Origin: Bacteriovorax sp. Seq25_V
GTDB lineage: Bacteria; Bdellovibrionota; Bacteriovoracia; Bacteriovoracales; Bacteriovoracaceae
Assembly: GCF_000447795.1 (NCBI RefSeq)
Contig: NZ_AUNI01000019.1
Location: 62,001-126,000 of the forward strand
DNA length: 64,000 bases
Direction: 5' to 3'
Shown here in pieces: positions 37,949 to 43,646 of this stretch (positions within the stretch are counted from its first letter, which is position 1; each line of letters begins with the position of its first letter). Both the position numbers and the translations under genes were made by a program. The notes under the pieces were generated by a model. It was not told where the DNA came from. It searched no databases and was given only the letters and a program-made list of their open reading frames with translations.

Positions 37949-40006
37949 TTACTTGAGCAATATGTTTCTGATACTGCGTAAGTATTTGTTTCTATTAGTG
38001 TCGTGAATATTGTGAGAGGCATTTTCGACTGGGATGGCAATATCAAATTGATCAGCAATTAGTTTATATTTATGATCATTAACTCCATAAAGATAAATTG
38101 TTTTCTCCGTATTTTCAGTGAGAACACGTGGTGAAATAGCAGGCATTTTGGACTGACCCATTAGTTGCAGTGAGTACTTCCAGCCTTCAATATATTTTGT
38201 GTCTTTGTTTATCAAAGTTTCGAATTTCGGTGAGTTTTCAATTCCTGTGAAAATCGTTTGCTGATACCAATTTTTTAAAAATAAATTCAGTTCTTCATTT
38301 GTTGTAACACCATTAAATAGTTTTTCATCTCGCTCTGCACGATCTAACTTTTCTTCGTTAGGGATACCAAGCCCAGATGATTCAAGAATTAATTTTTTGA
38401 TGGTGTTGTTATTCATCGCAAGTAGAGAAGCGACACGGCCACCTAGCGAGTAGCCAAGAGCATTAATTTTTTTCTTATAGCTGAGTTTTGTGACTGCTTC
38501 ACTGAGTTTCGAAATATAATCGTTAAAATCACTGTAGAGATGAAGTCCTTCTCCGTTGTGACCTGGTAGGTTTACAAAAATCAAGAGAAAATCTTCTTCA
38601 AGTTCTGGAATTAGAAATTCAAAGTCCTTATCACTACCCATGAATCCGTGAAAAACGAGGAGTATATCTTTTGAAAGATCTCCTCTGATGAGAGGATTGC
38701 CAAGTATCTCCTTGACTTCATAAAGTGAAGAGCCAAGCGACTCAAGTTCTTTTCTTGGTATTTTAATTCCTGCTTTAATGGAATCGAAACTTTTAGATTG
38801 AATGAGAAGTTTTGGTTCATGGTATTTTGGAAGATTTTCTTTGATTTTGTGAAGGACCTCTCGATGAGAAAGAACCTCTACTGCTTCAATGAAACTTACG
38901 CCTACTTGTCCAAGTCTTGAATCAGTAACAGCGACTGTCTTACTTGAAGTGATGCCTTTCATACTCTGTTGAATTTCATGGTCAATGGAGTGGGGGCTAA
39001 TATTTTTTCCTCCACTGATATAGATATCATCGGCTCTTCCAAAAACAGTTAAATTATTATGAATATCAAATTTACCGATATCACTTGTTATAATAGTTCC
39101 ATTGAAATTCTCTTTGGAAAAAATACCGTGAGCGATAGTCTCTCCAGAAATTTCTATAATATTTTTGTCATTGAAGCGAATCTTTGTGTTGCCAAGTGGG
39201 GAACCTACAGTTTCAAGTAGTTTTAAGTCTGTTGTAAAAGGAGTTGCGCAAATTTGGGAGCACGTCTCTGTTTGTCCGTAGGAATTGGATAATTTTATCC
39301 CAAGTGCGACAGATTTTTGCAAGGTGTGAAGGCTTGTTTTTGCTCCACCGAGTACGACTCCCTTAAGTTTTTTAAGTCTATCGCATGAGTATTCATCCGT
39401 TAATAACTTTTGAAGCTGAAGATCAATTAGCGAGAGAATTGTGATTTCTGGATTCATGTCTAGAGATGAAGCAATATTTTTTGGATCACAGAAAACCGTT
39501 TTTGCTTTTGCCAGGATCGTTCGATAAATAATCATCAGACCACCAATGTGAAAGAATGGGAGAGTCATCCCCCAGCAGTCATTGATGTTCATTTGATAGT
39601 GCTCTATTGTCTGCTTTGCACTTGTTAAAAAGTTAAAATGAGTGAGCTCAATAGGTTTTGGTTTTCCACTTGATCCTGAAGTAAAAATAATGGTCGAAGT
39701 GTTTGAGAGCACTACTTCTTTTTCTTTGAAATCATAGTTTAAAGCATTTTCAAAATTTATATTAAATGATGTTAGAAGTTCATCTCTTTGTTTCTGTGGC
39801 AGTGATGGGTCGATCATTATCGCCACCTTGCCACTTGCAATGATTGCAAAGTATTTAACAAGATCGTGAGGAGAGTTGCACTCTACGACTTGGTACTTTT
39901 CGTCAGAAACTTTTTGAGCGCAAACTTCACTCCAAAAGGATGTATAGGTGTAGTAATCCTTGATAAAGGTAGTCTTTAATGAAAAAAAATCTGAATATAG
40001 TTTCAT
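37949..40006 (-). CDS. menE-menH: Fused O-succinylbenzoate--CoA ligase and SHCHC synthase (MenE-MenH)
   Basis: The 685-residue protein joins two menaquinone enzymes. Residues 1-440 are an AMP-forming acyl-CoA ligase of the MenE type: P-loop IIFTSGSSGKPKPIEL (~107-121), YGQTETCSQ, the GRADDIYISGGKNI hinge, and the catalytic-lysine region KIPRKELESL. Residues 447-685 are an alpha/beta hydrolase with VFHGFMGSDKDFE, the nucleophile GYSLGGR (Ser520) and the terminal His665 in ENASHNIHD, matching MenH, the SHCHC synthase. In most bacteria these are two proteins, and MenH acts two steps before MenE (MenC is between). The gene overlaps dinB by four bases, far from the main men operon at 53.6-59.2 kb. 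Confidence 0.88.
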   Translation of the reverse strand: MKLYSDFFSLKTTFIKDYYTYTSFWSEVCAQKVSDEKYQVVECNSPHDLVKYFAIIASGKVAIMIDPSLPQKQRDELLTSFNINFENALNYDFKEKEVVLSNTSTIIFTSGSSGKPKPIELTHFNFLTSAKQTIEHYQMNINDCWGMTLPFFHIGGLMIIYRTILAKAKTVFCDPKNIASSLDMNPEITILSLIDLQLQKLLTDEYSCDRLKKLKGVVLGGAKTSLHTLQKSVALGIKLSNSYGQTETCSQICATPFTTDLKLLETVGSPLGNTKIRFNDKNIIEISGETIAHGIFSKENFNGTIITSDIGKFDIHNNLTVFGRADDIYISGGKNISPHSIDHEIQQSMKGITSSKTVAVTDSRLGQVGVSFIEAVEVLSHREVLHKIKENLPKYHEPKLLIQSKSFDSIKAGIKIPRKELESLGSSLYEVKEILGNPLIRGDLSKDILLVFHGFMGSDKDFEFLIPELEEDFLLIFVNLPGHNGEGLHLYSDFNDYISKLSEAVTKLSYKKKINALGYSLGGRVASLLAMNNNTIKKLILESSGLGIPNEEKLDRAERDEKLFNGVTTNEELNLFLKNWYQQTIFTGIENSPKFETLINKDTKYIEGWKYSLQLMGQSKMPAISPRVLTENTEKTIYLYGVNDHKYKLIADQFDIAIPVENASHNIHDTNRNKYLRSIRNILLK

Positions 40007-41139
40007 GCTATTTCACTTAGTGGCAGAGGAATTTGCACACTCTCTCTGTCTTTTAACTTAATCCCTGTTCCCATCAATCGAATACCTTTTGGAGAGCTAT
40101 TGATGAAAGATTCGATGGCATTTCTTATCATAGATATGGCCTGATCATCTAGGCACAGATGATCAAGAATTTTCTTGGCATGGATTGAGTCTAGCATTAA
40201 TTCTTTGGTATGAGATTCAAAGTCGCTATATCTTATTTTTATCACAAGATGTGAAATGGTTCGATTATGAATATGAAATTGATCTATTTCTTTAAAGCGC
40301 TCACCAAATTCCTCAATCAGATCATCAATATAATCTAAGGCCATCGATTTTGTCGTTTCCGAGAAGAATGTTCGTTCAATGCTAAAACTTTTTCGCTGAC
40401 GACGATTGATGACTTCTGAATTATCAATTCCAAGGCATGATTCGTATAGATCAATGGCGTAGCGTTTACCAATTTTGATGATGAGCTCATGAAGATCATA
40501 CTTTAAAACATCGGAGCAGGTTCTTAGGCCAATTCTTTCAAGATTTGTTGCACTGACTTTACCAATTCCTGAAATTTTCTTTAAAGGAAGGTCTTTCAAA
40601 AAATCCTGCGCCGAATCTGGCGTGACACAATATTGTCCATTAGGTTTATTCCAGTCTGATGCAATCTTTGCGAGCATTTTATTATATGAAATTCCAGCAG
40701 AGGCAGTAAGTCCTGTCCTCTCATATATTTTCTTTCTAATCTCATTGGCCATCAGTGAAGCCGAACCCTCAAAATGTTTTGAGTCCGTAACATCAAGAAA
40801 TGCTTCATCAAGTGAAATCATTTGTACTTTGTCTGTATATTCATAAAAAATATCACGAACAATTTTAGATGCGGCTTCATACTTTGCAAAATTTGGTCTA
40901 ACTAGAATGAGACTTGGGCATAGCTGAAAAGCTTTAAAGGTAGGCATTGCAGCTCTTACACCAAATTCACGTGCCTTGTAATTACTTGTGCAAAGAACAC
41001 CCTTCGTTTTCGAAGGGCCGCCGATGGCCATAGGGACATTTTTTAATTTGGGGTTATCTCTCATTTCAACAGCAGCATAGAAACAATCCATGTCAATATG
41101 GATAATTTTAAATGTCTTCTGATGAAAGATGTTATTCAT
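40003..41139 (-). CDS. dinB: DNA polymerase IV (translesion, Y family)
   Basis: The 378-residue polymerase copies damaged DNA during the SOS response. Catalytic carboxylates are in IIHIDMDCFYAAVEMRDN and ISLDEAFLDVTDS. Other family blocks are GGPSKTKGVLCTSNYKAREF, GISYNKMLAKIASDWNKPNG and the helix-hairpin-helix ISGIGKVSATNL. The C-terminal little-finger domain is present. It ends QIPLPLSEIA, a plausible beta-clamp-binding end (QxxLPL). It overlaps lexA by eight bases and menE-menH by four, so LexA likely controls all three. Start is ATG 41139. Confidence 0.96.
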   Translation of the reverse strand: MNNIFHQKTFKIIHIDMDCFYAAVEMRDNPKLKNVPMAIGGPSKTKGVLCTSNYKAREFGVRAAMPTFKAFQLCPSLILVRPNFAKYEAASKIVRDIFYEYTDKVQMISLDEAFLDVTDSKHFEGSASLMANEIRKKIYERTGLTASAGISYNKMLAKIASDWNKPNGQYCVTPDSAQDFLKDLPLKKISGIGKVSATNLERIGLRTCSDVLKYDLHELIIKIGKRYAIDLYESCLGIDNSEVINRRQRKSFSIERTFFSETTKSMALDYIDDLIEEFGERFKEIDQFHIHNRTISHLVIKIRYSDFESHTKELMLDSIHAKKILDHLCLDDQAISMIRNAIESFINSSPKGIRLMGTGIKLKDRESVQIPLPLSEIA

Positions 41140-41764
41140 AGTTTCTAAGTAGCCCTACAACAACTCCTGCTATTCTGAAGTCTTGATCTTCTCTGATTGA
41201 GAATGGCTTCAGTCGTTCGTTTGCAGGGTGAAGTTCGATAACTCTGTTTTTTTGATAAAATCTCTTAACTGTTGCTTCGTTGTCGATTATGGCGATGACT
41301 GTTTGACCTTGGTTTGCCTGGGCCTGATAGCGACAAATTAGTACATCTCCCTCAAAAATTCCGTCTTCAATCATCGAGTCACCTTGCACATTCAGTGCAT
41401 AGTATTTTCCTGGGCGATTGACCATTGTTTTTGGAACAGAAGTAAGGCTATCAGGGTTTTCAAGGGCCTCAATAGGATTACCTGCGGCAACATCCCCAAG
41501 AAGAGGGATTTCTTCATAAAGATCATTTTGAGCTGTGATTGTTGATTTTGCTTCAAGCTCAAGCACACGAATTCCTCGGCGGGCATTCCAGTCCATCTCA
41601 ATAAGATTTGCTTCCTGAAGGTACTTCATATATTTATTTACAGAGCCAAAAGACTTAAGGCCAAAGTGGTCTTTAATTTCTTTCTGTGTAGGAGAAACCT
41701 CCTGCTCGAGAGTGTAAGTCTTAATATATTCGTATACTTCTTTCTGTTTTTTAGTTAGTGCCAT
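41132..41764 (-). CDS. lexA: LexA SOS repressor
   Basis: The 210-residue repressor has a winged helix-turn-helix (TKKQKEVYEYIKTYTLEQEV, SPTQKEIKDHFGLKS) and an S24 peptidase domain. The self-cleavage site is Ala94-Gly95 in LLGDVAAGNPIEAL, the nucleophile Ser130 is in VQGDSMIEDG, and the general base Lys167 is in ATVKRFYQ. RecA-stimulated cleavage would derepress SOS genes. The start is ATG 41764 although the frame is open to 41812. That ATG lies six bases after the -10 element, which suggests a leaderless message, and the N-terminus then aligns with the family. dinB overlaps it downstream. Confidence 0.95.
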   Translation of the reverse strand: MALTKKQKEVYEYIKTYTLEQEVSPTQKEIKDHFGLKSFGSVNKYMKYLQEANLIEMDWNARRGIRVLELEAKSTITAQNDLYEEIPLLGDVAAGNPIEALENPDSLTSVPKTMVNRPGKYYALNVQGDSMIEDGIFEGDVLICRYQAQANQGQTVIAIIDNEATVKRFYQKNRVIELHPANERLKPFSIREDQDFRIAGVVVGLLRNYE

Positions 41765-41799
41765 ATAAATATAATGTGCGTAAGTAGGGCGTAAGTCAA
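41765..41799 (-). promoter_or_regulatory. lexA promoter with 8-bp direct repeat (candidate LexA operator)
   Basis: On the reverse strand TTGACT (41799-41794), a 17-base spacer and CATTAT (41776-41771) form a sigma-70 promoter. ACTTACGC occurs twice with an 11-base period (41789-41796 and 41778-41785), one helical turn apart, covering the -35 and spacer. Start of transcription would fall at about the lexA ATG. Confidence 0.6.
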
Positions 41800-41918
41800 G
41801 TATATTTTTCAATGGCTAATTTTTTGACACGATTGAAAGTTCTACAGGTTTTGCCCATTTGGGCCACTGCAATTGATATGATGTTGTCTTATCGCTACCA
41901 AGCTTTTTAGGAGTATTA

Positions 41919-43646
41919 ATGTCACCAAAAAATGGTCTTTTCCTTTTAACTTTCATCATTTCTCAATATTCATTTGCAACAACTTGTCCAAGTGTGAAGG
42001 AGAGAACCGAGGGAGTTTGGAAAACGGTTTCATATTGTGAAAAGGACATCCTTACTAAGGAGCTCGAGTACTATATTCCGACAGGTTCAAAGACAAAGGA
42101 AATTCATTTCAACTCTAAGGGGCAAGAGGTTTCTGTAGATTCATGGAGTACCGATGGAATACATCGTTACTCTTCAGTGATCGAACATAAGGATGAATCC
42201 CATTATACAGAGACATCTTACTCTACAGATGGGAAACGTTCTCTTGTCTCTAAAGAGGAACATACTTTGCTCGAAGGTGATGATTTTATTACTAAAGAAT
42301 GGGTGATAACAAAGTCATCACACATTCCACAAGCAATTAAACATTATAAAATTGCTGCTGAGAAACCATATCGAATTGATGTGCTAAATAAAGAAGGTGA
42401 GGTCGTTAAATATTATCTTGTTACTTTTAACATGGATGCACCATTGGCAAATCTTGTAAATGAGTTCCAAGCATATACACCAGAAGGTGCATTGATTGGA
42501 AGTTATGATGAAAGTAGTGATTTTGATATTGTTTCACACATTAAGCGCACTTCTAAAACAGAAGCAGAAGCTACTGAGAAAATAAGAATATTTGAAAATA
42601 AATATCGTGAGCCTGTCGTCATTATTGATACTGGTTTTGATATCATGCACCCTACAATTACACATAAACTCTATAATTCGCCAGTTGAGATTTCTGGTGA
42701 TGGAATTGATAATGATGGCAATGGGCGAATTGATGATTCTTGGGGATGGCAAAGACAAGATGATGCAGGTTTAAGTCTTTTACGCGATGACAATAATATT
42801 AGAGAGACTCATTCTCTTATTCATACTCCTTATCCTGTTTCTCATGGAACACATGTTGCATCTCTTGCTCTACGTGATCTTGATAGCTATGGTCTAGTTG
42901 GATTTGCTGGAGACGTGGCCATTGCTGATCATCTCGAAAAGGCAGGCGATTATATAGCAGATAAGAATATTAGATTTGTGAATATGAGCTTCGCGATAGG
43001 GTTTCCAGGTGTTCCTATGTCGGCACCCCGTGAGTCTTTTTATTATCTTGAAAATATTTTTATTCAAAATCCAAATGCTTTATTCACAGTAGCAGCAGGC
43101 AATGGAAGAGGGGAACTCGACTTAGATCAAAAGGGGAATGATAACTTTCCTGCAAGCTACAATTATAATAATATGATTAAGGTTGGTGCTATCAATACTT
43201 CTGAACTTTCTATTAATGACTATCCTAATTATAAGATGGCCTCTTTTTCTAAGTATGGAATTAGCAAGGTTCAAATTTTTGCTCCTGGGCAAGGAGTGGT
43301 TTCTGCACAATCTGGTGGTGGGGATATTGCTCTTAATGGAACGTCAATGGCATCGCCATATGTAATGAACGTGCTACTGAAAGGACATGAGTTAAACAAA
43401 AAATTGGATACACAGTCTTTGAAAGAGTTATTACTAAAAACTGTTTACATACCAAAGGGGAATCCATTTCCATGCCAAAGCGGTGGGATCGTCGTTCCAG
43501 AGCGTTTCTACCATGCTATTAAAAATGTCTCAAATGATGGGTCATTAATAAGCGCAATTGAAAGCGCACGTAAGACAATAGCAATCGCTGGCGAAGAAAG
43601 ATCATTAGAAGTTATATCTAAGATGTGGAGAGAGAGAGGCCTGTAA
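41919..43646 (+). CDS. Secreted subtilisin-family serine protease (S8)
   Basis: The 575-residue protein has a signal peptide (ending YSFA), a ~210-residue N-terminal propeptide-like region, and a subtilase domain. The catalytic Asp237 is in PVVIIDTGFDIMHP, His309 in SHGTHVASLALRD, Ser476 in LNGTSMASPYVM, with the oxyanion Asn395 in VAAGNGRGE. Insertions and a short C-terminal tail follow. Secreted S8 enzymes digest proteins outside the cell. The N-terminal part contains repeats of charged strands (YYIPTGSKTKEIHF, SVDSWSTDGI) reminiscent of MORN-like or antitoxin-like beta repeats. AGGAG precedes the ATG, which is divergent from lexA. Confidence 0.93.
   Translation: MSPKNGLFLLTFIISQYSFATTCPSVKERTEGVWKTVSYCEKDILTKELEYYIPTGSKTKEIHFNSKGQEVSVDSWSTDGIHRYSSVIEHKDESHYTETSYSTDGKRSLVSKEEHTLLEGDDFITKEWVITKSSHIPQAIKHYKIAAEKPYRIDVLNKEGEVVKYYLVTFNMDAPLANLVNEFQAYTPEGALIGSYDESSDFDIVSHIKRTSKTEAEATEKIRIFENKYREPVVIIDTGFDIMHPTITHKLYNSPVEISGDGIDNDGNGRIDDSWGWQRQDDAGLSLLRDDNNIRETHSLIHTPYPVSHGTHVASLALRDLDSYGLVGFAGDVAIADHLEKAGDYIADKNIRFVNMSFAIGFPGVPMSAPRESFYYLENIFIQNPNALFTVAAGNGRGELDLDQKGNDNFPASYNYNNMIKVGAINTSELSINDYPNYKMASFSKYGISKVQIFAPGQGVVSAQSGGGDIALNGTSMASPYVMNVLLKGHELNKKLDTQSLKELLLKTVYIPKGNPFPCQSGGIVVPERFYHAIKNVSNDGSLISAIESARKTIAIAGEERSLEVISKMWRERGL

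Follow-up and report, generated by a model that had tools for sequence, protein, structure and literature searches.

The predicted lexA operator of this Bacteriovorax-like bacterium was confirmed, by comparison of sequences, to be a repeat of two half-sites in the same direction and not the usual mirror-image site. We put at about 0.86 the probability that LexA itself uses this repeat as its operator, by which it would repress lexA-dinB, recA, and umuDC, and that the lexA mRNA is leaderless. The sites, genes, spacing, conservation, covariation, catalytic residues, and -10/ATG geometry used below were read from the sequence.

The locus lies in a window of 64 kb, which is the whole stretch of DNA that was analyzed. 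The lexA upstream sequence (minus strand, 41799-41762) is TTGACTTACGCCCTACTTACGCACATTATATTTATATG, and the following features were placed at the locus:

40003..41139, minus strand: dinB (DNA polymerase IV), overlapping the lexA stop by 8 bp
41132..41764, minus strand: lexA, 210 aa, TIGR00498
41764, minus strand: predicted lexA transcription start, at the A of the ATG or 1-2 nt off, placed from the -10/ATG geometry
41771..41776, minus strand: -10 hexamer CATTAT, with a 17-bp spacer and with 6 nt (ATTTAT) between its end and the ATG at 41764-41762
41778..41796, minus strand: predicted LexA operator, ACTTACGC-CCT-ACTTACGC, a direct repeat of the form TTAC-N7-TTAC with an 11-bp period
41778..41785, minus strand: downstream half-site ACTTACGC, within the promoter spacer
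41789..41796, minus strand: upstream half-site ACTTACGC, overlapping the -35
41794..41799, minus strand: -35 hexamer TTGACT, from the promoter scan

The sequence-only reading had claimed that ACTTACGC occurs twice, 11 bp from start to start, across the lexA -35 and spacer, and this was borne out at 41796-41789 and 41785-41778. The -35 and -10 together gave 9 of 12 consensus matches. An Rfam scan of the window gave 0 matches.

The protein was identified as LexA by a TIGR00498 match of 176.9 bits (cut-off 110.95), and it carries the winged-helix DNA-binding domain PF01726 and the S24 peptidase domain PF00717. It has an Ala94-Gly95 cleavage site and a Ser130/Lys167 dyad, and the Ala-Gly, Ser, and Lys were kept in all 130 aligned LexA rows, this protein included. 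The recognition helix spans residues 39-51 in a predicted structure with a mean pLDDT of 88.1. The lexA ATG is correct, because the N-terminus of most relatives (MxLTKKQ or MxITKKQ) aligns with the start of this protein, in which the next Met is only residue 46. The 8-bp overlap suggests that lexA and dinB probably form one operon. Within 37949-41139, a 685-aa frame with an AMP-binding domain fused to an alpha/beta hydrolase follows lexA-dinB with a 4-bp overlap, and it may be another member of the lexA operon.

The half-site ACTTACGC was counted 4 times in the window, where 0.68 was expected, and an 8-mer of any kind recurred at offset 11 at 10 positions. Since ten such repeats in 64 kb mean that a bare repeat is not rare, recurrence was the proper test. 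The exact ACTTACGC-N3-ACTTACGC had 3 matches in the bacterium's own 3.45-Mb genome, upstream of lexA-dinB, recA, and umuDC, and a third-order model of the window gave 0.0003 expected exact matches per genome. The sites thus precede lexA, recA, and error-prone polymerase genes, as is looked for in an SOS box. The operator of recA lies about 164 nt upstream of the gene, whose product matched TIGR02012 with 564.3 bits (cut-off 325.3). The UmuD-like protein is an S24 protein (PF00717), and UmuC (PF00817) had UmuC as its best NCBIfam match, with 359.4 against 431 bits in a gene that is incomplete at the end of the locus. Enrichment of the repeat before SOS genes had been named beforehand as a test, and it was found as exact copies at lexA, recA, and umuDC, but not at the best uvrA match of the genome, which showed no repeat by eye in 260 bases upstream. 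This best UvrA match (G000:C21:204014-206530) and the LexA-box uvrA of a genome of the same genus share only 43% identity, and the two genomes may have kept different uvrA copies.

Looser patterns were also searched in the same genome. Sites with 2-3 mismatches numbered 14, against 9 control matches overall; they were mostly intragenic, had no SOS role by eye, and were taken as chance. The pattern CTTAC-N6-CTTAC gave 11 matches against 6 in the control; three of the 11 are the exact SOS sites.

The search was extended to 129 genomes of 48 genera, which make up one order with a single family (Bacteriovoracaceae). With at most one mismatch, the motif was found at 178 sites in 62 of the 129 genomes, and a reversed-pattern control gave 5. 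Among the 150 sites listed, 36 were at most 600 bp before lexA, 45 before recA, 17 before umuD-like genes, and 52 elsewhere. A chance or promoter-related repeat without any regulatory role would agree with the 10 offset-11 positions in the window, but the excess over the control and the position of most listed sites before SOS genes make its probability close to negligible. All lexA and recA sites had the same direction as the gene, and the umuD sites were opposed in 13 cases and alike in 4. Of the other 52 sites, 34 (32 loci) were inspected. SOS-type genes adjoin 22 of these 32 loci, namely umuDC (12), a Y-family polymerase gene (3), ImuA-like genes (2), uvrA (2), rSAM_link_UDG or similar genes (2), and an S24 protein gene (1); the remaining 10 had no evident SOS gene. 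The expected enrichment was therefore upheld across the family, since the motif also stands before Y-family polymerase, uvrA, and rSAM_link_UDG genes. Part of the genes at the 32 loci were named by profile scans and the remainder by eye: TIGR03916 matched at one of the 2 rSAM_link_UDG-type loci, the ImuA-like genes L321 and L326 had no profile match and were named by eye, and the UmuD-like proteins reached 76-94 bits, where the cut-off is 110. A divergent SRAP gene (PF02586) was present at 2 loci, L310 and L281.

The order has 110 full-length genes for LexA, and the geometry of the repeat was analyzed upstream of 90 of them; 18 of the 20 others are from genus g36. A direct TACG pair at offset 11 was present within 120 bases upstream in 84 of the 90, the next commonest offset (31) was present in 9, and shuffled sequences had the offset-11 pair in a mean of 0.14 and a maximum of 2 of 90. 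The commonest inverted TACG arrangement was seen in 15 of the 90. In other families of the phylum, the offset-11 pair preceded 21 of 40 lexA genes; by family, it was found in 11 of 12 rows of f8 and in 3 of 3 of f20. Additional tandem CTTACGC half-sites lie upstream of the main lexA operator at L019 and L020, from the same genus.

The LexA box of B. bacteriovorus is given as the palindrome TTAC-N3-GTAA (PMC8565304, PMC3323433), and it resembles the Bacteriovorax box in its TTAC core and in coming from a related lineage. The TTAC/GTAA half-site common to both would fit the possibility that this palindrome is the true operator here and the direct repeat incidental. However, the lexA promoter of the window has no GTAA at N3 after TTAC, and no more than 15 of the 90 lexA upstreams share any one inverted TACG arrangement, whereas 84 have the direct pair, so that we regard the palindrome as highly improbable. 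TTAC-N3-GTAA was also outside the 8 commonest inverted arrangements in the 90 lexA upstreams of the order. Each of 4 genomes of genus g83, which is probably Bdellovibrio, has exactly 2 zero-mismatch sites of the composite CTTAC-N7-TTACA-N2-GTAA, one of them at lexA and the other at an imuA-like gene. Two of these four imuA-like genes were scanned and scored 46 and 49 bits, below the cut-off of 150, and the others were named by eye. With at most one mismatch, the composite gave 11 matches against 6 in the reversed control, so that weaker sites carry no weight and only the 8 zero-mismatch sites were used. At both zero-mismatch sites of g83, the published Bdellovibrio palindrome lies inside a direct repeat of the family geometry.

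Direct-repeat LexA boxes as a kind are already known. The claim that the box is a one-turn direct repeat and not a palindrome stood, but the type of operator had been described before, because GTTC-N7-GTTC is a direct-repeat LexA box in Alphaproteobacteria (PMC8565304, PMC3323433). Like the Bacteriovorax repeat, that SOS box has two 4-bp cores in the same direction, an N7 spacer, and an 11-bp period. The cores differ (GTTC against TTAC in the half-site ACTTACGC), as do the phyla, and a leaderless-looking lexA tied to the box is a feature of Bacteriovorax, unlike the alphaproteobacterial GTTC-N7-GTTC. A LexA orthologue of Synechocystis is described as binding the direct repeat CTA-N9-CTA (PMC3091678), which differs in core and spacing and has a 12-bp period. 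The E. coli box, CTGT-N8-ACAG (PMC8565304), belongs to a repressor of the same family with an alignable helix, but it is palindromic and has different letters. A literature search of open-licence papers gave no report of the operator in Bacteriovorax or Halobacteriovorax. Within that literature, the sequence ACTTACGC-N3-ACTTACGC, its lineage and spread in the phylum, the covariation with two residues, and the leaderless-looking lexA appear to be new.

Two types of operator were seen, TACGC and, in some genera, TACGG. In the 105 lexA genes of clear type, G accompanied Asp at LexA residue 44 in 29 genes, and a single Asp gene had C, at a weak site; residues other than Asp went with C in 75 genes and with G in 0. 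Genome-wide, TACGC-type sites were found in 51 of 54 non-Asp44 genomes against 0 of 29 Asp genomes, and TACGG-type sites in 3 of 54 against 22 of 29; 7 of the 29 Asp genomes had no such pattern. For genomes with an unclassified LexA, the figures were 0 of 20 (TACGC-type) and 19 of 20 (TACGG-type), and for genomes with both kinds of LexA, 2 of 3 and 1 of 3. In the whole order, there were 134 TACGG-type sites against 15 in the control, and such sites were present in 6 of the 23 genomes in which no full LexA was found. Residue 40 went with the fifth base, which was G in all 106 rows that had Gly or Ser and A in all 10 that had Asn, Phe, or Ala (130 rows, 14 of them without a pair). Arg, Lys, or Asn at residue 44 may contact the G opposite C, and Asp44 the C opposite G. 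Residues 40 and 44 lie on helix 39-51 of the model and align with Asn41 and Glu45 of E. coli LexA, which are listed as DNA contacts (PMC3091678).

The operator before each LexA copy was also compared with that copy's residue 44. In G107 and G108, which are 2 of the 3 genomes with both kinds of LexA, each of the two copies was preceded by the operator that its residue 44 predicts; in G075, the third such genome, the Asp copy was ambiguous. Parsimony on a tree built without the helix columns gave 4 changes of residue and 5 of site. Independent pairs numbered 2 on supported branches (4 on all); a mean of 1.9 were concordant, and none ran the other way (sign test, p 0.5). The covariation of residues and operator is strong across genomes and thin in independent events. 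Because the operator letters track residues 40 and 44, LexA very probably reads the direct repeat.

Another regulator binding the repeat at SOS promoters would explain the persistence of 13 sites in 9 of the 23 genomes in which a full LexA was not found. However, 6 of these 9 genomes are at most 88% complete (the other 3, G023, G034, and G041, are at least 96% complete), the site type follows residues 40 and 44 of LexA, and in G107 and G108 the operators fit the copies that they precede. We therefore consider a regulator other than LexA quite improbable.

Hinge length was considered as a cause of the direct repeat and rejected, because the TACGG-type LexA proteins have shorter hinges (median 14 against 19) yet also have direct repeats. 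A second box is frequent in the TACGG-type lexA genes of genera g5, g7, g10, g11, g24, g36, g40, and g43: besides the box near the promoter, there is one near the Shine-Dalgarno sequence (SD) and the start codon.

The lexA gene of the window has a -10 that would place the transcription start at the start codon, and it has no SD. In 51 TACGC-type lexA genes where the pair was clear, the gap between repeat and ATG was 13 nt in 34, 12 nt in 8, 14 nt in 2, and another length in 7. We examined 34 promoters chosen for a gap of 13-14 nt and for TTGACT, so that the distance, though not the letters, is partly set by selection: in 33 of the 34, there were 6 nt between the predicted -10 and the ATG, and the hexamer began with T in 23, had A as its second letter in 31, and closed with T in 32. 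An SD-like string was missing in 50 of the 51 TACGC-type genes, whereas an SD was present in 22 of 24 TACGG-type genes (these figures leave out 14 of the 90 rows, which had no clear pair, and 1 mixed-letter row). Most TACGC-type lexA genes are thus very probably leaderless, to judge by a TAnnnT -10 six bases from the ATG and the missing SD.

The repeat could also be the LexA operator while transcription of lexA begins at a more distant upstream promoter and the mRNA has a leader. The -10 of the window lexA is weak (4 of 6 matches), and recA and uvrA of the family are distant enough from the site for leaders and have purine-rich stretches before the ATG. However, the lexA promoter was the only promoter-like site in 41650-41950, where shuffled sequence yields 0.7, and the 13-nt gap, the TAnnnT pattern that most of the 34 promoters show, and the different SD counts of the two operator types make an upstream start unlikely. 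The leaderless reading of lexA proposed from the sequence was supported by the conserved spacing, the conserved -10 letters, and the missing SD.

The start region of umuD in the bacterium's own genome is TATAAT-GACAAA-ATG. Among 9 umuD loci, the distance from -10 to start was 6 nt in 5 (L001, L325, L329, L281, and L282) and 7 nt in 2 (L310 and L277), and L319 and L327 do not fit the leaderless layout. The Y-family polymerase genes L314 and L316 had 7 nt. Leaders are expected for recA and uvrA, since these genes are further from the site. Leaderless starts as a genome-wide habit were not supported, because only lexA and one weaker case among 48 frames of the window fit; the layout seems to belong to these particular genes and not to the genome at large.

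We infer LexA binding, dimer geometry, repression, and the transcription start as follows. Each winged-helix domain of a LexA dimer would occupy one ACTTACGC half-site, with both domains in the same orientation and one helical turn between them. Alphaproteobacterial LexA probably binds GTTC-N7-GTTC in such a same-facing geometry. Bound LexA would cover the -35 and spacer and block RNA polymerase, so that lexA-dinB would repress itself, and the same site would repress recA and umuDC. RecA filaments would then induce self-cleavage of LexA at Ala94-Gly95 and free the promoters, and the derepressed lexA mRNA would begin at the ATG or 1-2 nt off and be translated without a Shine-Dalgarno leader.

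LexA is the classic example of a repressor that has switched operators again and again during evolution. The phylum largely holds one direct-repeat geometry, and the letters shift with two helix residues, even between two LexA copies of a genome; since the letters co-vary with these residues, the rewiring is testable by single swaps. The canonical SOS genes of B. bacteriovorus, recA among them, are reportedly not under LexA (as said of work by Campoy in 2005), whereas recA of its relatives in the Bacteriovoracaceae carries the predicted operator. The results suggest a re-reading of the palindromic Bdellovibrio operator and a master switch of stress that may run on a leaderless mRNA. A joint reading, which we see at even odds, is that in much of the Bdellovibrionota LexA reads TTAC-N7-TTAC by a two-residue code (residue 40 for base 5, residue 44 for base 6), that the Bdellovibrio palindrome arose as a composite when an inverted half-site was added to the repeat, and that the repressor and the mutagenic polymerases are made from leaderless mRNAs, bypassing Shine-Dalgarno initiation.

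Several further observations were made in the family. Among 30 recA upstreams, 20 had the forward repeat, 5 had a reversed TACGG repeat, and 5 had no strict match but a one-mismatch site. The reversed TACGG repeat lies about 85-112 bp before recA in G019, G022, G123, G124, and G125, and these sites suggest that a direct repeat may function in both orientations. In eight g36 genomes (G091-G094, G097, G099, G100, and G102), the recA match ends at about residue 180-203, in 5 of the 8 at a contig start, which may reflect an intein, an intron, a repeat, or an assembly break. Genome G104 of the same genus, a single contig, has 15 TACGGAAANNNTACGG sites, 6 of which are TACGGAAAAGATACGG, whereas other genomes of the order have at most 5; either a larger regulon or a mobile repeat could account for the excess. 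In three g14 genomes, exact operators (L291, L292, and L293) lie 170-213 bp upstream of genes without a known SOS role, and the two of their proteins that were scanned had a weak papain-family match (PF00112).
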